20,074 nucleotides of DNA. Origin: Spirogloea muscicola. Taxonomy: Eukaryota; Streptophyta; Zygnematophyceae; Spirogloeales; Spirogloeaceae. A program made the translations under genes and the position numbers. The notes under the pieces are model-generated. The model ran no database searches. It was not told where the DNA came from and worked only from the letters and a program-made list of their open reading frames with translations. The number at the start of each line of letters is the position of its first letter. Within the stretch, counting starts at the first letter, position 1. Below, piece by piece: positions 1-18,500 of this stretch. Location: NCBI GenBank assembly GCA_009602725.1, contig WELB01000244.1, positions 105,699-125,772 of the forward strand, given 5' to 3'.

Positions 1-2103
1 CGCTTGGGACTGCAGGACCTCCACTTGATCTCCCCCTGTCCGCCAGAGGAGGTCGCTGGGCTGACCGTACCCCAAGCGGAAAAAGGGTACCAGGGAGGGG
101 AAGGATGCCCGGAGCTCCTCCGCAATGCTGGCGCGCTCCACAGTGTTGAAGGCATTCTTCACGTCAACGGCCAGCACCAGCCACCCCGGGTGCTGGTCCA
201 AGGTCGCACGAACCCCATGAACGACGGCCTCGACCCCACTCCGCAGCCCCGCGCCGTACTGGTGTGGCGCCATGTGCACCTGCGCCAGCCCCGCATGCTG
301 CTGCCAGAGTACGCGGCTCACCAGGCGGTACAGGACCTCCCCAATGGCAATGGGCCTGACTCCCCCGCTCGGCTTGTCGAGGGCGAGCAGCGTGCTGGTG
401 CACAGTACGCCGCGGATGCTGGCCGGCACATTGTCGCGGGCCATATGCTGGCAGATCTGCAGCAGCGCGTTGAAGTCTGTTGCCTCACCCTCAAGGAAGA
501 TCTCCCGCAGGTGCTCAGTTAGCATGCGGGAGGGGCCGCCGGCGGCTGCGCGACGGCTGGTCTGGAGAGCCTTCATGAGGGCGTCGGCGTCCAAGACCAC
601 CTCCTCCGGCGGGGCGAACGCGGCCAACCACGGTGGCAGGGGGGAGCTGGACGGGGGGTGGAGGGAGTCCAGAGCCGCCCGGGTTGCCGCATTGGTCGGC
701 GCCAGCATCGCATCGTCCAGGGCCTGCACAGCCCGGGAGAGCTCGCCCGCGTGGCCGTAGCGAAGAGCCCTGCGGACGCTGGCGGCCCGGTCGTGTGTTG
801 CCCCTCGACCACCACGGTTGGCTTCGGATGCCGCCACGGCTGCGTCGTGCCTCGCCAGGAGCTCCTCCCAGTGCCCGCTCTCGAACAACTGGACGCGTTC
901 CAAGAGGGGCTGCTGGCCCTGCTTGCGGCTGTCGAGAGAGACCCGCCCGAGCAACAGCCGGGGGAAGAGGATGAACAGCTTCCACGCCGCCTCGTCTCTG
1001 TGGTCCACGACGATCCGCTGTGTCACCGGGCGGAGCGCGCGGCGGAGGTGTGGGCGTGCCCAGCGTGGAACATGGCGTAGGAGCGGCAGGGCCGCCTGGC
1101 GGTGAACTGCGGCCAGGTCAAGGTCGGCCAGCCACTGCCAGTGGTGAGGCGTGGGCGGGGACGGCGCGGGAGGCCTGCCTGGTCTGCCCCGACGACCACC
1201 CGCCGCCGCTGCGCTCCGCGCCTGCTCCGCACGGTTGATGTTGCCCGCGCAAGTTCGCTGGTGGTTGGACCGGCCGGACCGCGTGGTGAAGGTCCTCTGG
1301 CAAAGCTGGCACCGAGGCGGGTCGGGCGAGGGAGGAGAGGGCGACGGCGGTGGAGCCGGCTCGCTCGGCGGGGGTGGAGGCGGCGGAGATGGGGGGGGCG
1401 TCGATGGCGCCGACTGTGGAAGGCTGGGCGGCTCGAGAGGCGGGATGGCGGATGATCGGGAAGGCGGCGTCGGAGGAGGTGGGGGCGGTGGGGACGTCGG
1501 CGGCTGTGGTGACGACGGCTCGGCGGGCGGTAGCGGCTGCCGCACCACTGTCGCCGGAGAAGCACACTCAGGGGCGTCAGGGCCGAGCACATGGGACATG
1601 GTACCCTGAGGATGGAGGAGCGTGGTCACCTCGTGGGTCCCCTCGCTTCTCAGGGGTGGAGGCGATAACGTTGGTGCCCGACACTTCTCTCGGGCGGGAG
1701 GCGATAGAGTAGTGGCCTCCGTGGAATGCTCCGTGGAATGCTCCGTGGAATGCTCCGCCCGAGTGGATGCCAGGGCCTGGACGATGGGGCTGCAAGCCGC
1801 GACGGCCGCTGCGGGCGGCGGGCCGGTGGGGCTGGCATGCCCCTTGCAGTGTCGCCGATGCACAGAGACACCATGGGGAGTTGCGAAATCCCGCGGGCAG
1901 GTGGGGCACGGCGCGCGCGGGGGCTTCGCAGGCGAGGGTGGCGACGGCGGAAGAAGGGGGGGCTGCGGCGGAGGTGGCGTGGTGGCGGCATGGAAGGCGG
2001 CGAGGGTGAGAAACCGCTGCGCCCACGCGAACTTGGCCGGGGGAAGTTCGGGACTCCGGCTCCGAGGGCGGCGCCGAGAGCTGCACGCCGCCGCGGACCC
2101 CAT
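1..2103 (-). CDS. R2-like non-LTR retrotransposon protein, N-terminal part (zinc fingers + start of reverse transcriptase), runs off left edge
   Basis: One uninterrupted minus-strand frame of 701 codons runs from ATG 2103-2101 to the left edge. The nearest upstream in-frame stop is at 2193-2191. Two zinc fingers fit C-X2-C-X12-H-X3-C: residues 66-86 (starts CPTCPRDF, bases 1908-1846) and 265-285 (starts CQLCQRTF, bases 1311-1249). They are separated by long Pro/Ser/Ala-rich linkers. The reverse transcriptase begins near residue 560. RPIAIGE at about 583 matches the region ahead of motif A, and LAVDVKNAFNTVER at about 644-657 is motif A, with its catalytic Asp near 647. The frame reaches the edge near where the SxxGVxQGDPLGP motif should start, so the YxDD motif and any endonuclease would lie outside. 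Paired N-terminal CCHC/CCHH fingers on a single ORF resemble R2/NeSL-type elements (family knowledge); the clade is inference. The frame is intact here, so the copy may be young. ATG 1599 is a possible internal start but would omit finger 1. Confidence 0.9.
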   Translation of the reverse strand, partial: MGSAAACSSRRRPRSRSPELPPAKFAWAQRFLTLAAFHAATTPPPPQPPLLPPSPPSPAKPPRAPCPTCPRDFATPHGVSVHRRHCKGHASPTGPPPAAAVAACSPIVQALASTRAEHSTEHSTEHSTEATTLSPPAREKCRAPTLSPPPLRSEGTHEVTTLLHPQGTMSHVLGPDAPECASPATVVRQPLPPAEPSSPQPPTSPPPPPPPTPPSRSSAIPPLEPPSLPQSAPSTPPPSPPPPPPPSEPAPPPSPSPPSPDPPRCQLCQRTFTTRSGRSNHQRTCAGNINRAEQARSAAAAGGRRGRPGRPPAPSPPTPHHWQWLADLDLAAVHRQAALPLLRHVPRWARPHLRRALRPVTQRIVVDHRDEAAWKLFILFPRLLLGRVSLDSRKQGQQPLLERVQLFESGHWEELLARHDAAVAASEANRGGRGATHDRAASVRRALRYGHAGELSRAVQALDDAMLAPTNAATRAALDSLHPPSSSPLPPWLAAFAPPEEVVLDADALMKALQTSRRAAAGGPSRMLTEHLREIFLEGEATDFNALLQICQHMARDNVPASIRGVLCTSTLLALDKPSGGVRPIAIGEVLYRLVSRVLWQQHAGLAQVHMAPHQYGAGLRSGVEAVVHGVRATLDQHPGWLVLAVDVKNAFNTVERASIAEELRASFPSLVPFFRLGYGQPSDLLWRTGGDQVEVLQSQA
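1717..1752 (-). repeat. Triple 12-base tandem repeat inside the retrotransposon ORF
   Basis: The plus-strand unit CTCCGTGGAATG occurs three times without change. In the minus-strand frame of the retrotransposon protein it adds the four-residue unit E-H-S-T three times between zinc finger 1 and the proline-rich linker. The length is a multiple of three, so the frame is kept. Confidence 0.9.
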
Positions 2104-2261
2104 GGCAGGCGCCGCCGGCGACGGCGCCGGCGGCGGCCCGGGGTTTAAGAGGGGTGGCGGCGGCGGCGGCGGCGCCCGCGACCAGATGGATCAAAAGAGA
2201 ACGACATTAAAGCCAGGCTGCTCGCCCTCCTGCCCGTGGCGGCGGGCCGCTGCTCGCCATG
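2104..2261 (-). other. 5' flank of the retrotransposon ORF, with a GGC-repeat
   Basis: This stretch lies between the ORF start (2103) and the retroelement 3'-end-like module at 2262-2345. It contains a (CGG)n-type triplet run at about 2155-2173. It is probably the element's 5' untranslated region. I see no recognisable promoter element or other gene in it. Confidence 0.4.
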
Positions 2262-2345
2262 CAAGGCGGTGAAGAAAGAAAGCGCGGCCAAATTGACTGG
2301 TGGCTGTGAGAGGCCAGCCCAAAGAAATGGACAAGGTCTGGAGGA
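2262..2345 (-). repeat. Retroelement 3'-UTR-like module with stem-loop, just upstream of the retrotransposon ORF
   Basis: Read on the minus strand, it runs from CAGACCTTGTCC through GGGCTGGCC...CAGCCACCAGTCA to GGCCGCGCTTTC. The plus-strand stretch at about 9392-9455 has the same order (CAGACTTTGTCC, GGGCTGGCC...CAGCCACCAGTCA, GGCCGCGCTTCC). At 9341 that order follows a coding tail and stop codon, so this copy is probably the 3' end of an older element lying upstream of the 1-2103 ORF on the same strand. No coding tail is readable next to this copy. Confidence 0.65.
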
Positions 2346-2418
2346 TACAGCAGCCACACTCGTCTTCCGTTTTGCACCAGACTCTGCCCGAAGAATGTAT
2401 TGGCTTGAATTGGCCTCC

Positions 2419-2527
2419 CTTTCTGTTTCGTAGCGCTTCCCCTGGCCCCCTTCTCGTACTCTGTTCATTCTTTTTCGGGCTGGTTGTTCCAGCCCCTATT
2501 CCCAATGGGCGAGCACTTTCTTCTTTT
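2419..2527 (+). repeat. Dispersed stem-loop module, copy A (apparently inserted)
   Basis: It contains CGCTTCCCCTGG, CTTCTCGTACTCTG, the stem-loop GGGCTGGTTGTTCCAGCCC and AATGGGCGAGCACTTTC. Bases 2464-2525 match the cores at 14801-14862 and 14889-14950 except for one base. The flanks at 2381-2418 and 2528-2562 are joined directly to each other at 10776-10848, so this module sits inside an otherwise continuous repeat. Confidence 0.85.
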
Positions 2528-3013
2528 TTTTCATTTCATGCGCTCCGCGCGCCTTCTCTCTTTCCGTTGCGTCGCCTTGTGTCTAGTTGTCTTCCCTGGC
2601 CGAACGCGGTCGCCCGCCCCTTCTCCGCCGGCGTCACCGAGCACTCTGCGGCGAGCCGTCGCCCCCGCCACGGTGCCACTCCGTCCTTGCGCCTATGCAC
2701 CAGCCCTGGCCACAGACATGGCCGCTCGGTGGTCCGCATGTCCTGTTGAGCTTGTTGAGTCGCTGCTTCGATTGAAGCGAGCCTCTGACGAAAACAGAGC
2801 ACCCCTAGCGCTGGCGCAGCGCCTGGTCCAGGCTGCGTAATGAGCACAGCCACCACGACGAGCGGTTCGAAAGTCAACAATGAAAATAAATTGCCCTTAG
2901 CAGCCATTTCTGCAGCATGCTGACAGTTACTTTCATTGTCTTTGCAAAGCCACCACGTGCACACGGCAGCATTGCCGGAGGACTTCTTTGCAAGCTGAGA
3001 CACTTTGGCTAGG
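2528..3013. other. Intergenic region upstream of the HIBADH-like gene; no gene supported
   Basis: It starts with a repeat shared with 10814-10848. A plus-strand frame from 2539 to 2840 encodes about 100 residues, Arg/Pro/Ala-rich at first and then helical-looking, ending at a TAA. A longer minus-strand frame (3132-2536) crosses it. Neither has a domain I recognise. The plus frame ends before the HIBADH exon 1 without a clear splice link. It could hold 5' UTR and promoter of the HIBADH gene, but no TATA-like site stands out. Confidence 0.4.
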
Positions 3014-5652
3014 ATGGCTGGCTTCAAGGCCGAGCTTACGGCTATCAAGCCAGGCCTGACCCGGATTGGGTGAGGGATTCTGTGCTCTCGTTTGCCTTTG
3101 TTAAGGGCTCCAAGCCTCGCAATGTGTATCACGCTGAGTACGACTTTTCAGAAATGTCAAAAATGAGCTGTCGTCTGTCAATTGCTCAGCTTCCTCGGGG
3201 CATGTGTCTAGGACATGTCAGATGGATCGGAACAGGAGTCATGGGTCAAGCAATGTGTGGACACCTCCAAGCTGCTGGATACGATTTGACCATCTTCAAT
3301 CGAACAGCAAGGTGCTTCTCCACGTCATGATCGCCTTCGACTGACGGTCCACTGGGCTGAGCACGGTGATGATGTCTAGATGGATACACAATGAGGAACT
3401 GCTGGTGGCCTCTCATTGTAGATTGACAACGTGCAGCACCATCTGCACCTGATAACATCAGTCAATACATATGGCCAATAGCAGTCAGCCCTGAGCATTT
3501 CATTGCTAAGCTGACTGAGCACGAGTGCTCCTGTTCACTCCTTTGAAAGCCGTCTCTTCTTACCTGCTACTCCAGGAAGGCTGAAACTTTGAGAGAGAAG
3601 GGTGCAAAGCTCGTGGACTCGCCTTCTGCCGTGGCATCAGAGAGCGATGTTGTCTTCACGATCGTCGGGTCTGCATCTTCACCCAAGGTCTGCAGCTCCG
3701 AAGCTGCTAGTGACTTGTGGTGCTGAATGTGGGCACGTTTAGTTCTGCTGATTAATACGAGCAAGAAGCAGGTGAATCAAGAGCACAACTGGCTAACTGC
3801 ATCTCAATGTTCTCCCGCAGATGTCAAAGAGGTCATCCTTGGTGACACTGGTGTCTTGAAGAGCTTGCAACCTGGCAGCATTGTGAGGGCTCCCTGCACT
3901 GCTACTCACTGTCCATTTCAAGGGCAGTCGCTTGTCTCACAAAACGTTGGTAGAGAATGTTGAGAACTTGGGGTACATCTTCAAAGATTTGACTTCGAGT
4001 TATGAACTAACTTACACAGGTGGTCGACATGACGACTAGTCAGCCAAGCTTGGCAAGAGACATATATGAAGCTGCCAGAAAGCGGTAAGTATGTTGAGGC
4101 CAGCCTCTGCTTTTTCTCTGATTTGACATTAAAACAAGTGTATGTACAAGGAGCTACAATCTGTTAAGGTATCCTTCATCATTCTCAGGTTTTGAGAGAT
4201 GGGCCACATCTGTGCGTTAGCAAGAGCTCTACTTTGCCGTTGCCACTGTGCAGGGGTTGCAGTGCTGTGGATGCACCAGTCTCAGGAGGCGACAAGGGTG
4301 CAAAATCTGCAACCTTGGCAATCATGGCTGGGGGCGATGAAGCAGTTGTCCAGACGCTTCAGCCTTTGTTCAATTGTCTAGGGAACTGTACATATCTTGG
4401 ACCAGCCGGTTCTGGCCAAAGCTGCAAAATCGCGAATCAGGTCATTGATTAGCTTTTGCTTTCCCCTTCATCTAGGTATTGCTTATGCCTTCGATTGTGG
4501 GACATGAACTTACTGCACATTTGACACTTCGGGTGCAGGTCACAATTGCTTCAACTATGATTGGGATGGTTGAAGGAATGCTGTATGCTCACAAGGCTGG
4601 TCTAGATGTTCCCTTGTGCGGACCCTCTCCCTTTTGAATTTGTAGGTAGACTATCAATGGCATACATTGTGAATTACGCAGGCCTTCCCTCGAATCATTC
4701 GTGGTTGATTGCTTTAGGAGCATACATTGCATGCATCGTCATCAGCTTCCTTGGATTAGCATCCTTCACGACATGCTTGATGCATGCATTTCTTGGGATA
4801 TGGGTAATGTTGTTGGTGGAGGCCTCTGTCTCAAGTAGAGCTTGTACTGATATCCACTTCCTCATTGTCCATAGATTTGTGAAAGCAATATCTGGTGGTG
4901 CTGCTGCTTCCAAATCGCTTGATATTTATGCTAGCCGAATCCTGCAACGAGACTTTGCCCCAGGTCCGCATTTTGCTGACGTAGCTCCTCACTTACAATA
5001 TTCGTTCATCACATCAATCTTGGTGCATGGTTAGGTGCTCAGTATCCATTTGAGAGAGGCAAGCTGCTGCGGAGGTCGTACCTGCATGCACATTAAAGTG
5101 GTCTTCAAGCAAGTGCTACGTCTGCTCTGAATTCTGGTAATATCCTGAAGTGTGCAAAGTGGTCATAGGCCTGCCGAATATTGGAGCAAGATTCAGCCCG
5201 TCATTGATGATTCCTGCAGGTTTCTATGTCAAGCACTTCGTGAAAGACCTTGGCATTGCTCTGGAAGAGTGTCAGGCAATGAGACTGGCTCTACCTGGAC
5301 TGGCTCTTGTAAGGACCTTGGTTTCCCTAGCTTCTGCATGTCACTGTTGCAAGATCCCATAACGCACAGTCTTTGGTGCTTCCAAGGCCCCACATCATAC
5401 TAAGTTGCTTCAATTCATGCAAGCTTCTGATTATCTGCACAATATCTAAACGTCACGCGAGATGCAGCATAGCTGAGGTTGCAATATTCTGAAGCACGCT
5501 GCTCTGACCGAGATGCTGCTGGTGACAACCACCTTGTGCAGGCACAGCAGCTGTATGTCTCACTCCAGGCACACGGTGAAGGCGAGCTTGGTACACAGGC
5601 CCTACTCTTAGCACTGGAACGACTCAACCACACATCCATTGATTGCAAATGA
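3014..5652 (+). CDS. 3-hydroxyisobutyrate dehydrogenase-like 1 family protein (beta-hydroxyacid dehydrogenase), ten exons
   Basis: Spliced exons: 3014-3069, 3222-3311, 3576-~3709, 3821-3882, 4020-4084, 4254-4440, 4539-4615, 4875-4963, 5220-5308, 5542-5652; about 319 aa. GT-AG boundaries keep the frame, but the end of exon 3 is uncertain. It oxidises a 3-hydroxy acid, or reduces the matching semialdehyde, with NAD(P). The product aligns in my memory along its whole length with the plant HIBADH-like 1 group. Visible motifs: dinucleotide-binding GWIGTGVMG across the exon 1/2 junction, VVDMTTS, substrate-loop DAPVSGGDKGA, and GSGQSCKIANQ with the catalytic Lys near residue 194. The C-terminal helical domain includes FYVKHFVKDLGIALEECQ and ends LERLNHTSIDCK. 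ATG 3014 was chosen because the following residues splice cleanly into GWIGTG. It gives only about 18 residues before that motif, so a mitochondrial presequence is not evident; a further 5' exon cannot be excluded. The substrate (hydroxyisobutyrate, glyoxylate or succinic semialdehyde) cannot be told from sequence. Confidence 0.92.
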
Positions 5653-6087: not shown

Positions 6088-8494
6088 CTACACCCTGATA
6101 GCTTGCTGGCCGCTCATCAGGAAAGCCTGTATCAACGCGTGTGCTGCAGCTACCTGCTCAAGTAAGACCCTGAGTCAGCATTCATGCGCTGCCAAAATTT
6201 GGCCTGTGCACCTGTGGCCTGTGGAGTTGCCAACTATGTTTCTCTCGACTCTTTTCTTAAGGAGATAGGTGGATAGACAGATAACAGTATCTCAGCAAAG
6301 GCCAGGTGATATGTTACTTGAACCCTCGCAAATCGTCATACCTGCTCCGAGCTGCCAGCAATTTCAACCACCCGATCCTCCTCCCCGTCCTGCTGGTCAT
6401 GGACCTGGAGAGCTTAGCTTGAAATGTTAGCCAACTCAAGTGAAGGTGAGGTTGAACAAAGGAAGATATGAAGCAACAGAAGCGAGCAAAAGTCATCTAG
6501 CTGCTGATTGGGACTTGTCTTAATTGTCTGGCACGGCACAGGTCAAGAACCTTGATCACTGCTCCAGACATCTGACGAATCTGGTTGATGTTGGCACCAC
6601 CCTTGCCGATTATGGGACCCATATGAGTCTTGGGGAGGCGCAGCTCCTGCTTGAGCTGTTGAAACACCATGGAGGGTTGCCCTCGCCCTTGGCCTGGGAT
6701 GATGCCGACTGCACGCAAGCAGCCGATTACAGTAGTATCAAAACAATATCAGAATCGTCAGAGACATGTGCCGTCAGCCTTCTGCAGCTGCTTTCAAGTG
6801 ACTTTCAAATCCGCAGCACAACGACACTTTAGTAGGCCAATGCTGTGCTCCACTGCCACCGTCCCATGGATATGCAGAGATGGAATCAGTTTGCATCAGC
6901 AAGCAAGCCTCAACTCCAGAGACCAAGAATTGATTGACAACGAGATCAAGAAAGACTAGCAGCTGTCAAATTGAGGCACGAACCTTGTGGGAGCACAGGT
7001 GCACCATGCATGCCTGGGAACTGCCAGGGATTGGCCATCTGATGGACAGTCGGCATGCGGCTTCCAGGCCCAAGCTGCTCCTTTGTTGGGTTATCTCTAC
7101 AGCAGATGAGCAGGCCAGTGTTGGTGGACATGTGACCTGACAAGCTGGTGACCTTGCTCAAACACCCTCACTGCGATGAGGCTCGTGGTTGCTTGTACCT
7201 GAGGTACAAGCCTGGGTATACCTGAGGATGCCGCAGACGAGCTTCAGGGCAGATTCTACAGCCAGTGACTCTCCCGAAACTTGCACCAGGCGGTCTGTCG
7301 GACTTGATCCTGCTGGGAGGTCCTCCGACACCCTCACGCTGGCCCCCGTTGTCTCTCGGATCTCGTTGATGGTGGCCCCCCCCTTGCCAATGACGCTGCC
7401 AGCCTGAGAGCCGGCAATAAGGAGCCTCACATTGCACGTGGGTGCAGGGCCCGTGCTGTCCTCCTCCATCATCTCATCCTCCTCTTTGTCTTCCTTGGCC
7501 TACACGGCAAGAGTAGTGTCAGGCCAGGATGCATCAGTATCAAAGTTCATCACACACAGCTGATGTCGACCCAAGTCAAGGAAGCCATGTATGCAAAGTG
7601 CTCACTGATGTAGTGATTGTTTGGTATCACTCTTAACACCTGCTCAGCAACCCTGCAGCAATGGGCGGGGCCTGGACCTAGTCGGGGTGATGATCAGGGA
7701 TGCAGACCTCATCCAACAAGCATCAGTTAAACTTGTATGCATGAATTGCTTAAAAGGGACCCTGTGCAGGCCGAGAAAGCTGGCAGTTTGGCAGAGAACT
7801 CCACCCACATTGCTGCAGATAGCCACGAGGCGCAGCAGGGCCTCCATGGCTGCTGACCAGGGCTGGCCTTCCTCATCTAGAGATGACACCAGGACCACCC
7901 TTTCATCGGCGGCCTGCACGACATTTACAAACAGGATGCTGGGCATTTAGAAATGAGTCCAGCTGCAGGCAATACTCCGCATTGAGTGATCTGCGGAGGC
8001 CCGTTACTTGACTAGCAGAGTGCAGCAATTTCAGATATGCCAGGAAAGGCATCAGAAGGGGAGCCACTGGTCATGCGAAGGGGTTTCAGAGCACTGACAG
8101 GAACGGAGTCTGTGATCTTGATCTTGGCGCCTGTGTCCTCACGAAGCTGCTTGACCGTGGCACCCTGCTTGCCGATGATACTGCCCACACGCTTGGCCGG
8201 CACCAGCAGCCGGAACGACGCCTCCACTGTGGGCCCGGACCCAGCCGCAGCATGCCTTTTGCCAGACCCGTTCTGACGAGAGAGGGGAGATCCAGGTTGT
8301 GCACATTGAGATCCTACATTGGTCGTAACAGTACCATCTCGTCCGACGCACTGTGTGCATCAAGTGAAGCAATTGGGAAACAATGGGAAGCTGCACTGGA
8401 TAGCATGGTGGGCCTGTCTCACCTCCATCACCGGCGTGGTGCGCTCGGATCTCGGATGCGCAGGCTCCGCTTTCCCTAGCGCCGCAGCCGCCAT
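6088..8494 (-). CDS. Triple KH-domain RNA-binding protein, FLK/PEPPER-like, eight exons
   Basis: Exons on the minus strand: 8494-8423, 8272-8099, 7913-7809, 7499-7222, 7096-6984, 6708-6551, 6404-6342, 6153-6088. All introns are GT-AG, all phases fit, and the total is 1029 bases, or 342 aa. Three KH domains are visible. KH1 (about residues 44-117) has FRLLVPAKRVGSIIGKQG. KH2 (about 140-210) has NVRLLIAGSQAGSVIGKGG. KH3 (about 266-336) has ELRLPKTHMGPIIGKGG and ends HALIQAFLMSG. Each carries the GxxG loop (GKQG, GKGG, GKGG) that holds single-stranded RNA or DNA. The KH2-KH3 linker is rich in Pro, Gly and Met. An acidic stretch (KEDKEEDEMMEED) precedes KH2. Three KH domains with this spacing resemble plant FLK and PEPPER, nuclear regulators of mRNA processing; the exact role here is unknown. 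The start (MAAAALGKAEP) is the first Met of exon 1, in GGCATGG context. Confidence 0.93.
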
Positions 8495-9111
8495 GCCATC
8501 CCAGGGCCCGCCCAGATGGGTAGCCACCGACCAGCAACCGCCACTCGTCGCTTAGGAGGCCCGGGCCTCAATGACGGCGCCCGAGCTTCCTCCCGGCGCT
8601 CGAGCCGACCTGCCGTGCCCGCGCTCGGGCTCGCGGGGAGCGGGGCTGCACTGGCAGGCGCGCTGGTCCGCCCGCCGCGGCCTGCCACGGCGTCGCCCGC
8701 CTCACCGTCGGCGGCTGGCCCTGCCCACTTCGCGCCTCCGTGTGCTACCGACGCTTGATTTCGCTTGCGCTCGCTCGCTCGCTTGCGCTTCCCCATTCTT
8801 GGAACCCGCTACTCGGAGACCAGTGGCTCTCCCAATAGGGGCAAGGGCTGTGAGAAGCCAGCACGTACTGACAACAGGTTAGAAGGGGCCAAAATGGCCC
8901 TCCCCATCTGTCTCCTCCCCAGTCAATCTGGCCGCGCTTCCCCTGCTCTGGCCCCTGTTTGCGGCCCTTGTGGGCCACCTTCCATTTGGGCTTCTTCCAC
9001 CGTTTTTGGGCTGGAACTTTTTGACGTCCGGCTGCTGACCAGCGGCTGCTGACCGGGAAATGCACTTCCTTCTCAAAAAGCAGACGAGTCGCCATTCCCC
9101 CCTCGAGCCTA
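8495..9111. other. GC-rich upstream region of the KH gene and degenerate repeat DNA
   Basis: 8495-8760 is GC-rich and probably holds the KH gene's 5' UTR and promoter. About 8761-8790 is a short CGCT/TGCGCT-type simple repeat. 8910-8975 carries traces of the dispersed family (CCAGTCAATCTGGCCGCGC, then CTTCCCCTGCTCTGGCCCC). 9005-9020 has TTTTTGGGCTGGAAC. I see no ORF with a recognisable domain. Confidence 0.5.
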
Positions 9112-9149
9112 GTATGTCCGACCTGCGGCTGCTTAGCGGAGGTTACTGA
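9112..9149 (+). repeat. Retroelement 3'-end remnant: coding tail ending SDLRLLSGGY-stop
   Basis: TCCGACCTGCGGCTGCTTAG is followed by CGGAGGTTACTGA; in frame this reads SDLRLLSGGY and stop (TGA 9147-9149). The same tail, with small changes, ends at 9341, 10546, 10713, 10270 (minus) and 14631 (minus). After the stop comes TCGTAGCTGCTTTGTTTCTG, nearly the same as 14760-14779. Confidence 0.65.
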
Positions 9150-9283
9150 ATGATTCGTAGCTGCTTTGTTTCTGCCCTCCCGCCGCAGACCCCGCCGATG
9201 CCGCCGCAATCCCCGTTGCGCGCAGGCCGAGCTTTGGCGGCGCCCTCCGGCTTCCGTCAGGGCGACGTCTTTCCACCAGCTAG

Positions 9284-9455
9284 CTTCTCAATGGGCGAGC
9301 CCTTCTTCTCGGACCTGCATCTCCTGTCTAGAGGTTACTGAGCATTCCCTGGCTGATATCTTAGTCCTAGTCGTTCGCACTCAGGCTCCCTCAGACTTTG
9401 TCCATTCTTTTGGGCTGGCCTTTCCCAGCCACCAGTCACTCTGGCCGCGCTTCCT
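9284..9455 (+). repeat. Retroelement 3' end: coding tail (SDLHLLSRGY-stop) plus 3' UTR with stem-loop
   Basis: The tail reads FFSDLHLLSRGY and stops at TGA 9339-9341. An AATGGGCGAGC motif lies just before it (9290-9300). The 3' UTR then has CATTCCCTGG, and 72 bases after the stop comes GTCCATTCTTTTGGGCTGGC, with a paired partner CCCAGCC downstream. The order then continues CACCAGTCA...GGCCGCGC as at 2262-2345 (minus). Confidence 0.75.
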
Positions 9456-9456
9456 T

Positions 9457-9708
9457 CTTTGTTTCTCTGTGTGCTTGTTTCTTTTAGCGCTTCCCCTGGC
9501 CCCCTTCTCGTACTCTGTTTGTTCTCTTTTGAGCTCTTTTCCAGCCCCTATTCTCAATGGGCGAGCACTTTCTTCTCCTCCCCCGCGCCAGGCGAAGAGA
9601 AAGTGCTCGCCCATTGAGGATAGGGGCGCTGGAAAGGCCAGCCCAAAAAAGAATGAACAGAGGACGAGAAGGCCAGGGGAAGTAAAACAAGCACACAAAG
9701 AAACAAAG
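9457..9708. repeat. Long foldback: two inverted copies of the dispersed module with a 17-base spacer
   Basis: Arm 1 (9457-9576, plus) and arm 2 (9594-9708, minus) are copies of the same module. Both run from CTTTGTTTCT.TGTGTGCTTG through TTCCCCTGG, CTCTGTT and the CCAGCSCCT part of the stem-loop to CAATGGGCGAGCACTTTC. By eye the arms agree at roughly four fifths or more of positions, with a few indels. A transcript across this locus could form a hairpin with a stem over 100 base pairs. Confidence 0.9.
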
Positions 9709-10266
9709 CAGCTACTGTAACAAAGTTACACAAGATGGAACATCTATATCAAGGGAATGATAGCTGGAGGGGGTACTGAGGAGGCGAAGGACGGGCGCGC
9801 GATATTAGAGAAAGCGCATCTCTGAATAATGGCGCGCGACGCTGATGAAGGAGCAATATGGAATTTAGGAGCGCGACGGCGGCAAAGCCGGAATCTAGTG
9901 TTAGAACTCTACTAGTATTAGTATTAGTATTCCGCGCGGGGTCCCCGCAATCGGCGGCGACTCCAGCGGCGGAGGCGGCGGCCACGGGTGGATCTTCTGT
10001 GAGGGCTTAGCAAGTGGCCGGGCGCCTAATAATCCCATGAGGCCGGGGCCAGGGCCCCGAGAACCCTCGATGGCTACTTAAGGAGAAGGGGAGTCCAGTC
10101 GTGGGTTTTTCTCTTCCCCCCCCACACGCTTACGCTCGGCATTGTTTGTATTTCAACATCTGGTTTGTTCTGACCCATTGCACAAGTTTGGCTCCGACTC
10201 CTTTGCTTCGCGACACCAACGCCTCGTCCTTGGGCTTGACGATCCTCATTCTTTACAGCTACGATT
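9709..10266. other. Unassigned GC-rich stretch, possibly a decayed LTR-like sequence
   Basis: No gene is supported. It contains a short tandem of TAGTAT/TTAGTA units (about 9911-9930) and GC-rich inverted segments around 10015-10060. A TATA-like TACTTAAGG at about 10075 is followed by a poly-pyrimidine run near 10106-10125. A TGTTAGAA at 9898 and a TTCTTTACA ending at 10258 could be the ends of a solo LTR, but the five bases on each side do not match. Treat this as unexplained. Confidence 0.25.
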
Positions 10267-10318
10267 CACTCAGTAACCCCTGCTAAGCAGCCGCAGATCA
10301 GAGATGCTAGGCTCCTGG
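10267..10318 (-). repeat. Retroelement 3'-end remnant, 51 of 52 bases shared with 14629-14680
   Basis: On the minus strand it encodes a tail ending SISDLRLLSRGY-stop (TGA 10272-10270). The plus-strand segment starting CACTCAGTAACCCCTGC matches 14629-14680 with one difference, then the two sequences diverge sharply on both sides. Confidence 0.8.
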
Positions 10319-10507
10319 CCAGGCCGGTGGCCGTGGGGCCCGGTCGCGGCGCCCCCCCTCCGTCGATGCTGCCAAGCGGATCGGATGGTCCGGCGGCATC
10401 TCCTCTCCTGAACACTGTGGCCTCCCTTTCACGTCATGCGAAGAGAGCAGGCGCGCGGTGCGCATGACGATGGAAGAGTAACCAGTTCAGTTTCCTTCCC
10501 TGCCACG
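10319..10507. other. Unassigned intergenic stretch
   Basis: A GC-rich segment between two repeat remnants. I see no ORF with recognisable features, no RNA gene and no match to the other modules in the window. Confidence 0.3.
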
Positions 10508-10655
10508 AGCTACTCCGACCTGATGTTGCTCACTCGAGGGTACTGAGCTTCCCTGGAGCGTTGTCGTGTTTGGTAGTGTAGTCCTTCGGCACCTATTTCT
10601 TTGGCTTTAGACATTGTCCATTCTTTTTGAGCTGGCTTTGCCAGCCCTCTTGCGG
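10508..10655 (+). repeat. Retroelement 3' end: coding tail (SYSDLMLLTRGY-stop) plus 3' UTR with stem-loop
   Basis: The tail stops at TGA 10544-10546 and is followed by GCTTCCCTGG, like the copy at 9341. 83 bases after the stop lies TCCATTCTTTTTGAGCTGGC, pairing through a TTT loop with GCCAGCCC. The stem is kept while the loop differs from other copies. Confidence 0.75.
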
Positions 10656-10657
10656 CG

Positions 10658-10720
10658 CTCCAGCTCCCCAAGTTAGCCTGTCGGATTTGTTTGTGCTCAC
10701 CCGTAGGTACTGATGTCACC
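10658..10720 (+). repeat. Retroelement 3'-end remnant, left arm of an inverted pair (tail ..LSDLFVLTRRY-stop)
   Basis: It contains CTCCCCAAGTTAGCCTGTCG and ends GTAGGTACTGATGTCAC, with stop TGA 10711-10713. The minus strand of 10964-11029 carries the same sequence with scattered differences, making an imperfect inverted repeat separated by about 240 bases. Confidence 0.75.
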
Positions 10721-10775
10721 TAAGGCACCTTGGTTTCGGTTTCCGTAGTATGTAGCCCTGTTTGATTTGCCCTAA

Positions 10776-10848
10776 ACTCTGCCTGAACAATGTGTCGGCT
10801 TGAATTGGCCTCCATTTCATTTCATGCGCCCCGCGCGCCTTCTCTCTT
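10776..10848 (+). repeat. Uninterrupted ('empty') version of the repeat split by module A at 2419-2527
   Basis: 10776-10813 (ACTCTGCCTGAACAATGTGT...) matches 2381-2418 at 34 of 38 bases. 10814-10848 (TTTCATTTCATGCGCCCCGC...) matches 2528-2562 with about one difference. Here the two halves are adjacent; at the other locus about 109 bases separate them. Confidence 0.8.
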
Positions 10849-10963
10849 CTCTATGAATGCGCACTTCTTCTCTTCAAGCCAGAACCTTCTTCAGGCAAAA
10901 GCTAGAGCGAGATTTGGGGCTCCATAGCAGGAAGCACCATGCTAAGGTGGCTTTGGTAACAGC

Positions 10964-11029
10964 GTGACATAAGTACCAACAGGTGAGCACATGCAGATCC
11001 GACAGGCTAACTTGGGGAGCCGAAGCTCC
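10964..11029 (-). repeat. Retroelement 3'-end remnant, right arm of the inverted pair; stop codon lost
   Basis: On the minus strand it reads ..APQVSLSDLHVLTCWY, but the usual TGA after the Tyr is TTA, so the frame reads on. It is otherwise like 10658-10720. 11118-11165 (plus) holds a more decayed relative (ATGTTAGCAAGTCGGATC...AAGTACTTGG). Confidence 0.65.
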
Positions 11030-11213
11030 ACCACGGAAGCTGGTGGCCTGATTTACAGCGTGCCCAGCACACTGATGAATAGCCGGAGCTTTGAAGCGCT
11101 GCGCACCGCGCCTGCTCTCTCCGACTCCCATGTTAGCAAGTCGGATCATGGTCACTCATCAAGTACTTGGCAGTGCCCGAATTCTGCTCTGCTGATCTCT
11201 CAGTGGCCCAGCT

Positions 11214-11392: not shown

Positions 11393-14277
11393 TCACAAGG
11401 TTCTCAGCAAAAGTAGCCAAGAGTATATCATGCCCAGTGAGCAATACAGAGAGGTGAGGAGGAGTGGTAGAAATGGCAGCCTTTGGCCCATCAGAATGTG
11501 GTGTAAAAACTGACCATACAGCTCTACTACAGGCAGACCCAATAGGTAAGCCCAACAGTGAAGTGGCAGTAACTTCACCTTCTCTTGATCCGCATGCTTA
11601 AGGTTGCCTGGTCTTTGGTATAAGTGCGAGAGCCCACAGTACAAGCCGATTGAGTACAGTGTGAGCAACAGCATCTTGATTGGATACTCTTGGGGTTGAA
11701 ATAGAAGTGGAGAGAGGGACCATTGAGCCACTGTGACAGCAAGGAGTAAATTGCGCCAGTCAGACCTTGCATACCGTGCATCAGAACATCCAAGCTGCAA
11801 GGAGGAGGAAATGCTTTGGCGCTTAATGAGCAAGTAGTGATCCAAGAGAGTGCTGAAGATGCAAAAGCTGGTAGTCAGAATCATCACTAGCTGCATGCTA
11901 AAAGAAACAGGCTAATTACCAAGGGCTGTGAAGCAGGACCAAAGTCCATAGCTCACCAGTAGAAAGAAAGTAGTACTGTGAGCCTTCCTTGGCAGTGTGC
12001 GCACACGTTAAAGCAAGAGGGATGACAAAATGTAGGGTTGCCTTCTCATGGACGTGCCACCCGAGCATGTAGCCACAAAAGTAGCTATAGGATACCCAAG
12101 TCACCATGTCCATGGTGGAGGGCGCCTGCTTTGTCCAGATCTTATGCAGGCAGGGAATCATTGCCAGTAGTACCAGGGCCATAGAGATGCCAGGTTTGAT
12201 CTGCAACATAAGAGGCACAAGAGGTACTCACTACCTGGAATGAGTAGGTAATGGTACAGGTATCCACGACAACTAAGTGCTGCGGTACAATGAGTGTATC
12301 AAGATCAGCTTGCGTAGAACCTGCTCGCGAGATCGTGAATCTTAGGAAAGGCAGTGGAGCTAACACTTGGGAGGATCGCATACGGCGTCATGTCGCCAAC
12401 CAGACCGCCAGTCAAGGCCCCGCTTCTTAGAGGCAATTCAAGTCCCGTAAGTACGCCGTGCCTCCTCAATATACTCATGAAGCAAGCCAGAGCTTTGTCA
12501 AGTACATTGTAGATTGCCCACACGTTGGGTGCCCAATAAGCATGACACAAGCCCCTGCCAAAGGGGAAGAGCCTTGTGAACAGCTGCTTTCCCTGAGGAT
12601 GCCAGATTGCAGAGAGTCGAGCTTGTCAAGTGGTAATCCACAAGCAAAGAGCCTGTGACAGCATCAAGGTACTCTGCACTGCCAGCTATGTTGGCCTGCG
12701 ACATAGCACTGCATTACTGGGGTCAGGGTGTCGCAATTTGGTTCTCAAAGTTTGCCCTCTTGGTCAATTGAAAGATTAACATCCACATATAATCACGTGC
12801 CTTATCTGTGTAAAGACACCTGCACGATGTCAAAGCAGAAGAGAGAAGACATACCTGGCCTAGGTACCAAAAAGGACCAAAGGCTGCCAAGACTACTACC
12901 AAAACTGATGCCCCCAAAGCCATGAATCTCTGCACTGCTTGCTTTCCCTGGCAGTGATGCCGAAGGAGGTGGATCAATCAAGTACACGGGTCCAGCAACA
13001 GCAAACAGGTGCTTAAGGCAGACAAGTAGAGCAAATAACACTCCTCCAAGCAAGCCCTTGCCTTCCTGGGGCGCATAAACCAAGCAGGGTTTGAATGAAG
13101 AGTGACAACTTCTGTACATGGTGGCATCACCAACGGTATGTCAAAACCACCAACCAAAGCACAGAGGACCTTGCAGGCGCCAGCCAATGACACATGTCTG
13201 CACTGAGGAGCACATGCAGAAGAGGACATGCTCACCTTAAGCATGGCCAAAGAAAGGACGAGAATGCCGAGTAGGAAGCCATTGTACTGGAAGTGTACGT
13301 GGTCTACCATGATTAAGCCTGGGGAGAGAAGGACGGCAGCACTTGTCAGTCTCCTCCTCTCCTCTCCCATGTCCCTGGAAACACATGGCCACCAGTATGC
13401 ATGTAAGAGAATGTGCTTGAGCAGGTGGGGCACCGGTAGGCGTAATTTAGTGGCGTGCTGGAAGCTTCCATTAAACGAGCTCCTTGGAGTATCTATACAC
13501 GTGATTAGGAATGATAATGGCAAGCTCGATAGCATGCTGCCGGTATAGGATAAACAGTCTGTTGGCTACCTGCGGCTCGAAGCACACACATAATGGTTAG
13601 CATTACCACGCTATTATCATGCGGTGCCGTTGTTGTGCAAGCCGTTTAGAATAGGAGCCACTGAGCACCTCACTATGCAGCAGCAAAGGGTCTGAAACAG
13701 CTGGCAGTGGCCCAGGTGTGCCTGCAGACTGCACCTACAGAATCGCCACAAGGCGTAGTAGAGCAAGCAGTCCGCGACCATGACAGTGCTCCGGAGGTAG
13801 AGCACCGTGGCAGGGCTGGCATAGCCGAGCCCGCCATGGAGGTCCACTATGAGAGGGTCCACCGCAGCGGCCGGGATGGCAAGGAGGCGCTCGAGCCAAG
13901 CGAAGAGAGGAGGGTAGTCCAGCGTCCACTCCGACGTCTCGTCTGCGTACCACTGCAGAAAGCGCGACAAGGCTCTGATGCGAGCTGAATTGCCGAGCCC
14001 TGATCATACGCTCAGCCTCTCAAGTCTCGAGCCAAGAGCGCACAGCACTCAGACCACGACATTGGATTATATTGCAGGCAGTCTCCATCAAGCTGACGGC
14101 GAGGACCAGCATCAAGAAGCACGTCGAGGAGCTCGGAGGCATGAGCACCTGCACGAGGGGAAGGGAGCGCGTGAGCGCCATCCAGTGGCGGTGAACCTCG
14201 AAGTCGGTGCTGCGGTATGCCGGCACGAGCAGCAGCTTGACGGCCGTCGCCACGCTGGCCAGCCACGCCACGTCCAT
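11393..14277 (-). CDS. ALG8: ALG8: dolichyl-P-Glc:Glc1Man9GlcNAc2-PP-dolichol alpha-1,3-glucosyltransferase, seven exons, frameshifted in exon 4
   Basis: Exons: 14277-14149, 13952-13735, 13374-13236, 13065-12855, 12592-12365, 12200-11957, 11730-11393. All introns are GT-AG and all phases agree except inside exon 4. ALG8 (family GT57, ER membrane) adds the second glucose to the lipid-linked N-glycan precursor. Recognised motifs: [14 protein letters not shown] in exon 1, [14 protein letters not shown] in exon 2, [13 protein letters not shown] in exon 3, [11 protein letters not shown] in exon 4, [17 protein letters not shown] and TGGLVGD in exon 5, [12 protein letters not shown] in exon 6, [12 protein letters not shown] and LPFLPLLL in exon 7. 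Many hydrophobic spans fit a multipass protein. A tandem ATCA duplication (12973-12980) shifts the frame. As written, translation would stop in exon 5 at about 263 aa; without the duplication the reading is 500 aa, the usual family length. It may be a sequencing error, a variant allele or a recent pseudogene. Start MDVAW was chosen by homology; Mets upstream in the same frame exist. Confidence 0.93.
12973..12980. repeat. 4-base tandem duplication (ATCA x2) breaking the ALG8 frame
   Basis: Plus strand GGATCAATCAAGT; minus strand ACTTGATTGATCC. Conserved ALG8 residues are read in one frame up to this point (..GPVYLI) and in another directly after it (HLLRHHC..). Removing one ATCA unit joins the two frames exactly. 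No splice site of reasonable intron length explains the shift. Confidence 0.85.
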
Positions 14278-14433
14278 GGCCGCTCCGGTCACCAGAGCGC
14301 CGCCGCCGCCGCCGCCCGCAAAGGCGGCGGCAGCACGCGAGGCCTGGCAGAAGTGACGAGGACGCGAGGTAGGCATGAACTGAAAGGGAGGACAAATCAA
14401 GCCAACGCACTCAGGCAGAAGCTATTGCAAAGA

Positions 14434-14565
14434 ATGAAGAAAGTGCTCGCCTATTGAGAATAGGGGCTGGAACAACCAGCCCGAAAAAGAATGAACAGAG
14501 TACGAGAATGGGAGTGCTCGCCCGTAGAGAAGAGGGACCGGGCAAAGCCAGCCCAAAAAACAATA
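14434..14565 (-). repeat. Two dispersed stem-loop modules in tandem (copies F and E), upstream of ALG8
   Basis: On the minus strand, copy F comes first (TTTTTTGGGCTGGCTTTGCC, then GGGCGAGCACTCCC). Copy E follows (CTCGTACTCTGTTCATTC, stem-loop GGGCTGGTTGTTCCAGCCC, AATAGGCGAGCACTTTC). The E core matches the cores at 14801 and 14889 except for one visible base. F lies 77 bases after the retroelement coding tail that stops at 14631, as expected for its 3' UTR. Confidence 0.85.
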
Positions 14566-14628
14566 ATCTTCTTGGGACAATATTCAAAGAAGACTGGGGC
14601 TATGCGAAGCGGAGCCCTATTCCAAGAC

Positions 14629-14760
14629 ACTCAGTAACCCCTGCTAAGCAGCCGCAGATCAGAGATGCTGGGCTCCTGGAAGTGGGTCCCCTGAGCCAGA
14701 GGCAGCGAGACGGCCAGGCGCATTCGATACACTTGCGCCAGCGACCCTGCCACGAGTGTC
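14629..14760 (-). pseudogene. Fragment of a retrotransposon protein C-terminus
   Basis: Read on the minus strand, 14747-14702 is identical over 46 bases to 19988-20033 (encoding GSLAQVYRMRLAVSL). A short stretch follows, then the tail SISDLRLLSRGY and TGA (14633-14631). The fragment lacks the middle of the C-terminal region seen at the right edge of the window, so it is internally deleted or belongs to a subfamily. It is too short to be functional. Confidence 0.75.
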
Positions 14761-14950
14761 TCGTAGCAGCTTTGTTTCTGTTTCGTAGCGCTTCCCCTGG
14801 TTCATTCTTTTTCGGGCTGGTTGTTCCAGCCCCTATTCTCAATGGGCGAGCACTTTCTTCTTTCCCCTGGCCCCCTTCTCGTACTCTGTTCATTCTTTTT
14901 CGGGCTGGTTGTTCCAGCCCCTATTCTCAATGGGCGAGCACTTTCTTCTT
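14761..14950 (+). repeat. Two dispersed stem-loop modules in direct tandem (copies C and D)
   Basis: 14801-14862 and 14889-14950 are identical over 62 bases (TTCATTCTTTTTCGGGCTGG to the CTTTCTTCTT end), with a period of 88. Copy C lacks the CCCCCTTCTCGTACTCTG segment present in D and in copy A. Copy C is preceded by TCGTAGCAGCTTTGTTTCTG, as after the tail at 9149. The pair faces copies E and F (14434-14565) in the opposite orientation. Confidence 0.9.
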
Positions 14951-15516: not shown

Positions 15517-18500
15517 ATGCCGCCGCCGCCGGACTGGTCTCCGGCAGCTCCTCCCCTCGCCCTGCAGGCGCTCCACGTCCACGCCGCGGCCGCCGCCCCG
15601 CCGCCGCCGCTCCCGCCGCCGCTACCGCCGCCGCCCTTTGCGCCGCGGGCGGCCTGCGCTGCCTCGGCGGCCGCCATGGAGGCGGTCGGCGAGTGGGGCA
15701 ACACGCCTCTGCGCGATGTGGACGCAGAGATCCACAGCCTTCTCGAGCAGGAGAAGCGCCGGCAGTGGAAGGCACGCTGCTTCGTGCTTGCTCCCCTTGC
15801 TTCAGAGCCTGCCCCGCGCCAAGCGGCAGCTGCCGAGACGCCCTTCCTTGCGCCTCTGGAGCACCTCCCTCTCTCGCATCTCGAGGCTGCTCTGGTCGGA
15901 AGCTCAGTTTTGTCCTCGTGGTCACCTCGAAGCTCGCTCGATATGCGGCCTGTATATGTTGCCTAGCGCAGCAGGCTCTCCTTTTTGCCGACTTTTGATC
16001 CTTAAAAGATCAAGAGGGGTGCTGATTGACGTCCTTTCCTCATCCTCGTGCAGGGAATTGAGCTGATTGCCTCCGAAAACTTCACGTCACAGGCTGTCAT
16101 GGAAGCACTTGGCAGCTGCTTCACAAACAAGGTGCTGGGAGATAGCAACGTCTTGTATTTGGCAACAGCTGAATGCAGCCTGTGCCCTTGATGGTGTCAA
16201 ACCAAGCTCATGGTTAGAGGCTGATGCTGCCAAGTAGCAGGCCTCAGAATCAGTGAATTAGTGACTTCCAATGCAGGCTAGACCTTCGCTACCTTCAATC
16301 ACTTACTGGTCTTCCTTTCTGTTCGCTCAGTACTCGGAAGGTCTGCCAGGAGCCCGATACTATGGAGGGAATGAGGTTGTTGACCAGGTTGAGAACATCT
16401 GCAGAGCCCGGGCACTGCAGGTTTTTGGAGCAGACCCCGAGAAATGGGGTGTCAATGTGCAGCCTTATTCTGGAAGCCCGGCCAATTTTGCAGGTGGGGC
16501 TTGGCACAGAAAGTGCTGTACATGTAATCAGGTGGCTTGTCGTCCTTGCAGGTTAGCTTGCCTGGACTGGGCTTATTGACGTCAAGCCTGGCATTCATAC
16601 ATGAGCTGAAGTCTTACATAGGGGCTGCATATCCTGGTCTTTGTTGCTAAGTCTGTACTTTAAATGTGACAGTATACACTGCATTACTCAATCCGCACGA
16701 CCGCATCATGGGCCTTGACCTCCCATCCGGTGGCCATCTAACGCATGGGTAGGCAGCACGCAGCTGATACTTTTCCGTTTCTATGACTGATACCATTGAT
16801 GGAGACTCTCCTCTCCAGGAAAGGCCTGCTGCAAGGTGGAGCTTAAGTCACTGCAATCAATTAGTCAATCTCAACCTTAATAATGTGTGGCCAACTGATG
16901 AGCTCTTTCATTGTTGTCATGCAACAGCTACTACAATGCCGCTGGAAAGCGCATCTCAGCAACGTCCCTCTACTTTGAGTCATTGCCATACAAGGTGCAC
17001 AATGAGACAGGGTACATTGATTTCGAGAAGCTTGAGGAGAAGGCCTTGGATTTCAGGCCCAAGCTTATCATATGTGGTGGAAGTGCGTATGCACGCGACT
17101 GGGAGTATCCCAAGTTCAAGGCCACTGCTGACAAAGTTGGAGCTCTTCTGATGTGTGACATGGCACATATTAGTGGGCTTGTTGCTGCCAGAGTAAGTTC
17201 TGCATCGGCTTTTCCAAATATTGCCTGTTTATTTGCTTGCTGCTTCTCGTGAACATCCCTGGTATTGAAATGTAAAGGTTGGATGAGTCTGGGAGGCCAG
17301 ATGAGATGTTTAGGAAGTTGGATTGTACTAGCAGCTATCAGCAGTGCTGTCAGCACTGGACATTGTAGATATAAGCAGAGCATGGGGCACCAGAGCAGCT
17401 ACAAGTGCTGGTCGTTGCCAACCTCTGGACCTAAATTCCTTGATACCAATTATGTGATGACGCAGGAAGCAAGCAGCCCATTTGATTACTGTGATATAGT
17501 TACAACCACCACACACAAGACCTTGAGAGGTCCTCGGGCAGGCATGATATTCTTCAGGAGAGGTCCAAAAGCTCCAGCCAAAGGGCAGCCAGAAGGTGCT
17601 GTCTACGACTTTGAAGAGAAGATCAATGCCGCTGTCTTTCCTGCACTTCAGGTTGGAACCTGGCCCTTGTCTGGTTGACAGGTTATTGTTCAGGTGCAGG
17701 CAGGCTACTCTGTTACAGGTTGGTCTCATGATGATCTTGCAAGATTCTTCAGGTGACTACCTTTGCAAGATGTATCGCACTTTTAGACTGCTCTTCAGCA
17801 ACTTAACTTGAGACAATCGCTTTGCTTGGCTTAGGGAGGTCCTCATAATCACCAGATTGCAGCTTTGGCAGTAGCATTGAAGCAGGTATGCACCACTTTA
17901 TCCTGTACCATATCACAGTTCATATTGCTGCTATGTCTTGTTCCACGCATTTGCCAACCTGCATTGGTGTCTTATCTTTGACAAGTCCCTTTTCCCGTTT
18001 ATTCAGGCGAGTGGGCCAGCATTCCAAGCTTATGCAAAGCAAGTGAAGGCCAATGCACGGGCTATTAGGGACAGGCTGATGAAGCATGGATATAAGCTCG
18101 TTACAGACGGCACAGACAACCATCTTGTCCTCTGGGATCTTCGTCCTCTGGGATTGACAGGTATGCTACTTGAGCCAGATTGTCACTTGTAGGTCCCCTC
18201 AAGCTCAGTCTTCCCACATTGTTCTGCTATGATCTATTGACCCCTCTTAGCTGGGCATTAAGCCTCCTCAATCATCACCCAGTGTGCACAAGGCAGACTA
18301 AGAGGTTACGGTGAACAACTAGCACCTGCTGCGTATGTCTAGGTGGACATGATGCAAGGCATCTGCTTTCATTGTTGCAGGCAGCAAGGTCGAGAAAATC
18401 TGCGAATTGGCGCACATAACGCTCAACAAGAATGCTGTGCATGGCGACAGTAGTGCTCTTTCTCCTGGTGGAGTACGCATAGGTATGTGTATCTACATTG

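Follow-up and report, generated by a model that had tools for sequence, protein, structure and literature searches.

Dispersed repeats of Spirogloea muscicola are 3' ends of several R2-like retrotransposon families, three of which carry a hairpin that may serve as a reverse transcriptase tag

The window analysed here, i.e. the whole stretch of 20,074 nt from position 105,699 to 125,772 of contig WELB01000244.1 in the 153-Mb Spirogloea muscicola assembly GCA_009602725.1, contains copies of five retroelement families (F1-F5). These were mapped onto the window by blastn, and flanks were rejoined across inserts. Pieces of host genes are recognized by Pfam at 3070-4452 (NAD-binding dehydrogenase), 7158-7472 on the minus strand (KH domain), 13617-13970 on the minus strand (ALG6/ALG8 glycosyltransferase) and 16911-17678 (serine hydroxymethyltransferase, SHMT). 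The element copies are listed below, each with the basis of its assignment in brackets.

1-2189, minus strand: F1 element, 5' 2,189 nt (99.7% to F1 copy nt 1-2189)
2202-2338, minus strand: F3 3'-end fragment at 2279-2338 with hairpin at 2302-2320, and adjoining F3 coding fragment at 2202-2276 (blastn to F3 4694-4754 and 4381-4455)
2371-2562, plus strand: F5 3' end, interrupted by an F1 3' end at 2420-2524 with hairpin at 2477-2495 (joined flanks restore F5)
9105-9580, plus strand: F1 3' end split by an F3 insertion; tail stop 9149, UTR 9150-9173 (family mapping, flank joining)
9174-9456, plus strand: F3 3' end inside the F1 copy; tail stop 9341, hairpin 9412-9430 (F3 match from 9219)
9598-9715, minus strand: F1 3' end, hairpin 9625-9644; partner tail at 10318-10256 (family mapping, flank joining)
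10256-10318, minus strand: F1 coding tail, stop 10270, with the first 14 nt of the 3' UTR (family mapping, flank joining)
10493-10651, plus strand: F2 3' end; tail stop 10546, hairpin 10629-10646 (family mapping, flank joining)
10652-10850, plus strand: F5 3' end; tail stop 10713, hairpin GGCTTGAATTGGCC at 10797-10810 (family mapping)
10964-11102, minus strand: F5 coding fragment, equal to F5 copy 3985-4123 (family mapping)
14373-14431, minus strand: F5 3' UTR fragment (family mapping)
14436-14745, minus strand: composite of F1 tail (stop 14631), F2-like module and F1 3' end with hairpin 14464-14482 (family mapping)
14754-14949, plus strand: pair of F1 3' ends in head-to-tail order, joined at 14861/14862, with hairpins at 14814-14832 and 14902-14920 (family mapping)
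19851-20074, plus strand: F1 fragment, element nt 3673-3896 (RLE region), running past the right window edge (99.6%)

The F1 element at the left edge has its 5' end at 2189, comprises the 5' UTR, the C2HC fingers and the start of the RT, and continues past the window edge. The F1 copy at 9105-9580 resumes at 9457 behind the F3 insert, with CTTTGTTTCT on both sides of the insert (9164-9173 and 9457-9466) and a damaged hairpin at 9531-9548, and the last part of the F2 copy at 10493-10651 has been moved to about 10844-10869 by the F5 insertion. In the composite, an F2-like module (14513-14623) replaces about 40 nt of the F1 UTR and brings in an imperfect hairpin, GGGCTGGCTTTGCCCGGTCCC, at 14535-14554. 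A 540-nt insert of no assigned type (9716-10255) separates the minus-strand F1 tail from its own 3' end and is flanked on both sides by CAGCTAC on the plus strand, i.e. GTAGCTG on the minus strand (9709-9715 and 10256-10262). At 9544-9627 two element 3' ends meet tail to tail and form an inverted repeat of 30 bp (97%) whose arms are 24 nt apart. Further 3' modules of the form GGGCTGGCTTTTCACAGCCC...TTGGGAGAGCCAC or ...TTGGAAGAGCTC (types F6 and F7) are seen at 8823-8891 on the minus strand of the window, and in the fetched loci L003, L004, L011, L012, L013, L016, L064, L100 and L102.

A sequence-only reading of the window had described six coding tails ending in SDLxLLxRGY, three of them followed by a GGCTGGC-type stem-loop, and had assigned them to one retroelement family. 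Translation upstream of each stop confirms all six tails and their stops, and the inverted repeats 3' of the stops at 9341, 10546 and 14631 are likewise present, that of 14631 being imperfect. The single family has to be replaced by at least five, as the proteins of the four further families are only 43-67% identical to F1, and the three copies taken as alike are an F3 copy (9341), an F2 copy (10546) and the F1/F2-like/F1 composite (14631). Of the three tails thought to be without a clear stem-loop, those ending at 9149 and 10270 (minus strand) belong to split F1 copies whose hairpin lies beyond the insert, and both do have their 3' ends past the inserts; the tail at 10713 belongs to F5 and has a different, weaker hairpin, GGCTTGAATTGGCC.

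The conserved tail is the C-terminus of a single ORF of ~1,250-1,450 amino acids with a C2HC finger, an RT and an RLE-like endonuclease. The region upstream of the tail is a coherent reading frame, and the protein of every family, F1-F5, ends in SDLxxLxRGY. Full-length ORFs ending in the tail and its stop codon, which the earlier reading had proposed to look for, were found for F1-F5 and bear out its view that the anonymous repeats are 3' ends of non-LTR retroelements and that the tail is coding. A search by RT family proved unsuitable as a route to full-length LINEs: in nine fetched loci out of 150 listed matches no ORF of at least 350 amino acids ends in the tail, and the only two tails (L016 and L021) lie on the opposite strand. 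Six RVT_1 matches tie for the top score in that search, and loci L016-L020, L022 and L024 appear Ty3/gypsy-like by eye, with long ORFs and in several cases chromodomain-like C-termini. The full-length LINEs were obtained instead by a genome search with the C-terminal protein, which returned 20,787 candidates; the 150 scored and listed include frames of about 1,140-1,400 amino acids, and 35 of them reach one of the two highest scores, at 99-100% identity across 198 amino acids. The F1 copies L026, L027 and L028 have ~4.1 kb in common, L027 being near full length and ending about 20 nt before the usual 3' end, while L025 lacks the 5'-most 183 nt and an N run lies in L029. The tails revealed four more families, each of which was then searched and is represented by one fetched full-length copy: F2 (L130), F3 (L131), F4 (L132) and F5 (L133), with protein identities to F1 of 67%, 63%, 43% and 48%, respectively. 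In full-length copies the tail is followed by a 3' UTR of 90-150 nt without poly(A).

All five ORFs match RVT_1 (E 2.3e-13 to 9.8e-19) and none of them matches an APE endonuclease family at E<=1. Searching the PDB with a profile of the five sequences gives R2 proteins as the best matches (3.9e-11, 4.7e-10 and 5.5e-10) and LINE-1 ORF2p at 0.019, in line with the likeness to R2 suggested earlier. With a single ORF as phmmer query no LINE was found in the PDB, and NCBIfam returned only group II RT matches far below cut-off. Pfam has no match for the C-terminal (RLE) region; the RLE residues K-x2-[K/H]-Y, D-x14-D and H are nevertheless present in all five ORFs, as K-x2-K-Y in F1-F3 and as K-x2-H-Y in F4 and F5. 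The RLE of R2 is described as having a displaced catalytic K within K-x2-K-Y, plus H (PMC5678591). These residues give the pattern of a C-terminal PD-(D/E)xK-like endonuclease with a motif of the K-x2-K-Y type, which is predicted here from the protein sequences. Upstream of the RLE all five ORFs contain C, C, H and C in the spacing CX1CX11-12HX3C, compared with CX2-3CX7-8HX4C for the published CCHC knuckle. An N-terminal finger Cx2Cx11-12Hx3C is also found in all five; no finger family scores above cut-off, zf-C2HC_2 reaching 3.9e-4 in F4, under its own cut-off. An Rfam search of five full-length loci at E<=5 detected no HDV-like ribozyme at the 5' end, where a divergent one is possible. There is no single insertion site in 28S rDNA: the elements are dispersed over many contigs, their flanks differ and target duplications are present. 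Most of the repeats are 5'-truncated copies, reduced to the 3' end, of several related non-LTR retrotransposons that encode an RLE, have the architecture of the R2 group and are not site-specific. The tail peptide forms the end of the predicted endonuclease region and probably has no role at the RNA level.

The position of the hairpin was analysed in 20 3' ends per family, hand-picked from the listed matches across the identity range and not at random. Left out before counting were one of 20 F1 copies (N run), two F2, eight F3, two F4 and no F5 copies, and single copies were added or left out for alignments. Distances to the end were measured to the last base of the conserved end motif, such as CTTTC. 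From stop codon to hairpin the F1 copies vary between 74 and 99 nt depending on the subfamily, whereas the hairpin lies 26 nt from the end motif in 19/19 usable copies. The corresponding distance is 26-28 nt in F2 (14/18 copies matched) and 24 nt in F3 (11/12), and the weaker stems of F4 and F5 are found 23-28 nt (18/18) and 33-36 nt (19/20) from the end. The four unmatched F2 copies comprise one with the stem lost, one with an insert and two longer-loop variants; one kept F3 copy and one kept F5 copy have no proper stem. Common to F1-F3 is thus a GGCTGG hairpin located 24-28 nt upstream of a short terminal pyrimidine motif such as CTTTC, the ends being CTTTC/CTTCT-like in F1, F2, F3 and F5 and less clear in F4. 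On the 3' side of the stem, CGAG is conserved in 18/19 F1 and 9/16 F2 copies. The fixed distance noticed in the window is accordingly real as a constancy, but its reference point is the 3' end of the element and not the stop codon.

The same anchoring is seen genome-wide. Of 1,930 candidates obtained by searching the genome with the 14631 copy, 40 were scored; when these are aligned by the tail, most vary in their 5' start and share the end ...GGGCTGG(5)CCAGCCCCTATTCTCAATGGGCGAGCACTTTCTTC. An exact pattern from the hairpin to CCAGCCCCT and then ATGGGCG matches 2,883+2,850 times (5,733) at a spacing of 6-9 nt and 104+123 times (227) at 10-40 nt, and the reversed controls give 0; many of the 10-40 nt matches among those listed also hold the motif at its normal spacing, with another copy after it. 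The tail sequence TTACTGAGTG followed by the hairpin matches 977+964 times (1,941) at 64-94 nt and 119+115 times at 100-130 nt, compared with 0 and 0 for the reversed pattern, so that tail and stem-loop are coupled beyond chance. All these counts may include some loci twice because the assembly may hold duplicated contigs. Among 100 listed matches, the 100-130 nt class is mostly one subfamily type with a longer UTR. Such an F1-like subfamily, with the hairpin more than 100 nt from the stop, is seen at C2:188631, C3:1452171 and elsewhere, near-identical on many contigs. The regions C20:1130796-1135995 and C338:9309-14508 contain the same spaced copy pair in opposite orientation and are perhaps duplicated haplotypes.

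The 3' UTRs that follow the six window stops differ from one another. Folded alone, they give z scores of 0.51, -2.03 and -0.47 for the three hairpin copies and of -0.62, 1.40 and 0.49 for the others, and only the 10546 copy (z -2.03) is mildly stable, with 6/200 shuffles as good. In F1 and F2 the hairpin is predicted to sit inside a second helix within the final 62 nt, e.g. UGUCCAU/AUGGGCG, forming a two-tier stem. These folds are more stable than dinucleotide shuffles in F1 (z -3.66, 0/500 as good) and F2 (z -4.01, 1/500), while in F3, F4 and F5 the final 62 nt are no more stable than shuffles (170, 66 and 101 of 500 as good). In the proposed covariance test the stem, nearly invariant in sequence, had few changes to compare: in F1 none of 17 pairs is changed on both sides (96.6% paired versus 96.7% in shuffles), and in F2 there is one compensated pair in one copy, a result reached by 33/500 shuffles. 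One F5 pair is seen as UG, CG and UA, with nothing beyond shuffles. Slid controls are far worse than the actual pairing, though the structure was derived from the same sequences. The outer helix was also analysed by swapping upstream and downstream arms of 22 to 55 distinct modules between families, including or excluding F3 and those modules whose upstream box is not intact, and matched arms are not favoured in 12/12 settings (p 0.26-0.85). An enclosing helix common to all families was therefore rejected, as it is predicted in F1 and F2, yet arm swaps gave no matched advantage; it is a possibility for F1 and F2 only. The GGCC/GGCC stem of F4 was likewise rejected as a homologue of the hairpin, being broken in 6/23 copies without compensation (by eye) and absent from the predicted fold. 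Full-length elements without the stem-loop do exist in part, in that F4 and F5 have weaker, unrelated stems instead of the GGGCTGG hairpin, while F1-F3 have it.

The variable 5' truncation, the constant 3' end and the missing poly(A) fit the insertion pattern of non-LTR elements. Words of at least 6, 7 and 8 nt are shared by 16, 11 and 7 of 40 F1 junction pairs, respectively (e.g. CTTTTGCTC and CTTGATACGC). When the ends are re-paired at random (300 trials), such words turn up on average in 6.8, 2.9 and 1.2 pairs and at most in 12, 7 and 4. Since the shared words exceed those of re-paired ends, short target duplications exist, though most junctions show none (29/40 share less than 7 nt). CTT microhomology is found at several junctions. 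In 42/86 copies the 3' flank holds the 3' UTR of another copy at a distance of no more than about 100 nt, compared with 22/200 chunks of the window and 9/564 chunks near other RT loci. Nesting specific to 3' ends is not established by these numbers because element ORF fragments are enriched in the flanks too (31/86, compared with 40/200 window chunks and 10/564 RT-locus chunks). The counts suggest that element copies cluster, the backgrounds being the window and RT loci, neither of which is random genome. L028 (C135:50200-55600) combines a full-length F1-type ORF (93% to F1) with an F2-like 3' module, a possible module swap; its target duplication is imperfect.

Conserved stem-loops near the 3' end, as in F1-F3, are a feature of the stringent-type LINEs UnaL2, ZfL2-1 and ZfL2-2 and of the monocot L1 lineage ME1, all of which are APE-type, whereas the elements described here encode an RLE. 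The ORF2 proteins of two stringent LINEs (ZfL2) are reported to bind their cognate 3' stem-loop via the region between endonuclease and RT (PMC4176376), and in ME1 a conserved CGAG 3' of the stem is described (PMC3747384), as in F1 and F2. With R2 (R2Bm, R2Tg) the elements share the single ORF, the N-terminal zinc finger, the RT and the C-terminal RLE with K-x2-K-Y, and they have a knuckle-like motif of different spacing. They differ from R2 in being dispersed and not in 28S rDNA, in their C2HC fingers, in the lack of a detected HDV-like ribozyme and in a 3' UTR of 90-150 instead of 248 nt with a simple hairpin instead of the P1/P2 core. Both R2Bm and R2Tg are reported to need part of the 3' UTR for target-primed reverse transcription (TPRT): R2Bm works with a 43-nt core or tag and does so without terminal homology (PMC10499050), and R2Tg binds a pseudoknot in its 3' UTR (PMC12222951). 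The RLE architecture is also that of the NeSL, Utopia and HERO clades. Most RLE LINE clades are described as largely target-specific, with the exception of HERO, which has many non-specific elements, and Utopia is reported from Amoebozoa, SAR and Opisthokonta (PMC4640811). Dualen/RandI of Chlamydomonas, an algal family (PMC3747384), is an RLE-bearing LINE in a green alga as well, but it is described as carrying APE plus RLE (PMC4640811), whereas the five ORFs here have no APE match.

Taken together, these are R2-like elements of several families, and we consider it probable that the 3' hairpin of F1-F3 is an RT tag for TPRT and that 3' fragments and nesting follow from this mode of insertion. 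Recognition of the hairpin by the RT is likely, as it fits the rigid 3' anchoring, the fold stability of F1 and F2 and the literature on R2 and stringent LINEs. In this mechanism the elements would move by TPRT, with the RLE making a nick close to a target of the CTT type. The RNA tag bound by the cognate RT may be the hairpin, joined in F1 and F2 by the enclosing helix, and the bound 3' module would place the RNA 3' terminus on the nicked target so that synthesis could begin at CUUUCUUC. Where synthesis aborts, a 3' fragment would result; older copies may offer good new targets in their CTTTCTTC ends, so that copies would nest in one another.

The hairpin could alternatively be a sequence without structural function, inherited by related families through recent divergence or 3'-end exchange. 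We regard this as unlikely: the near invariance of the stem and the combination of an F1-type ORF with an F2-like end in L028 are in its favour, as is the comparison of F2 with F1 in the window, where the ORF is ~78% and the terminal ~65 nt are ~80% identical and the module is therefore not more conserved than coding DNA. However, only these terminal ~65 nt of the F1 and F2 3' UTRs could be aligned, the end spacing is rigid although upstream indels are tolerated, and the folds of both families are more stable than shuffles. A role of the hairpin in mRNA stability or 3'-end formation, as a histone-type stem-loop or terminator and not in RT binding, would agree with the lack of poly(A), with the closeness of the hairpin to the 3' end and with the conserved sequence 3' of the stem, and is nevertheless quite improbable. 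Histone-type cleavage takes place about 5 nt past the stem. The insertions keep about 26 nt past it, so the template RNA extended beyond such a cleavage point. No histone family was found in Rfam either, where five full-length loci gave two unrelated sub-threshold matches at E<=5, the F3 end four at E<=10 and the window none at gathering score; a histone-type stem-loop was rejected on these two grounds.

We think it very unlikely that only the pyrimidine 3' terminus counts, with CUUUCUUC annealing to AAG-ended primers to select the template and the hairpin incidental. The CTTTC/CTTCT-like ends of F1, F2, F3 and F5 and the CTT microhomology at several junctions would be accounted for, but the rigid spacing between hairpin and end would be left unexplained, and R2Bm is reported to depend on the 3' UTR core and not on terminal homology (PMC10499050). 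Within the preferred reading of the hairpin as an RT tag, a more far-reaching version is conceivable, if doubtful: several RLE-LINE lineages of one genome would share an exchangeable ~60-nt 3' module, consisting of enclosing helix, GGGCTGG hairpin and CTTTCTTC end, as template tag. RTs would then act on each other's RNAs, modules would swap between ORFs as in L028, and CTTTCTTC ends would serve as landing sites, giving rise to self-nesting arrays.

In the literature searched we found no algal case of dispersed RLE-only LINEs carrying a 3' hairpin; the families may be in Repbase. R2-type enzymes are being turned into gene-insertion tools, and which features let a short RNA serve as their template is under active study. 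This one genome, with thousands of dispersed and in many cases young insertions from several related RLE-LINE families, provides a natural data set that can show which 3' bases are always kept, at which point synthesis begins and how 3' modules and ORFs are paired. The use of a stringent-type 3' hairpin, best known from APE-type LINEs, would thereby extend to dispersed RLE elements, and anonymous intergenic repeats become an explained class.
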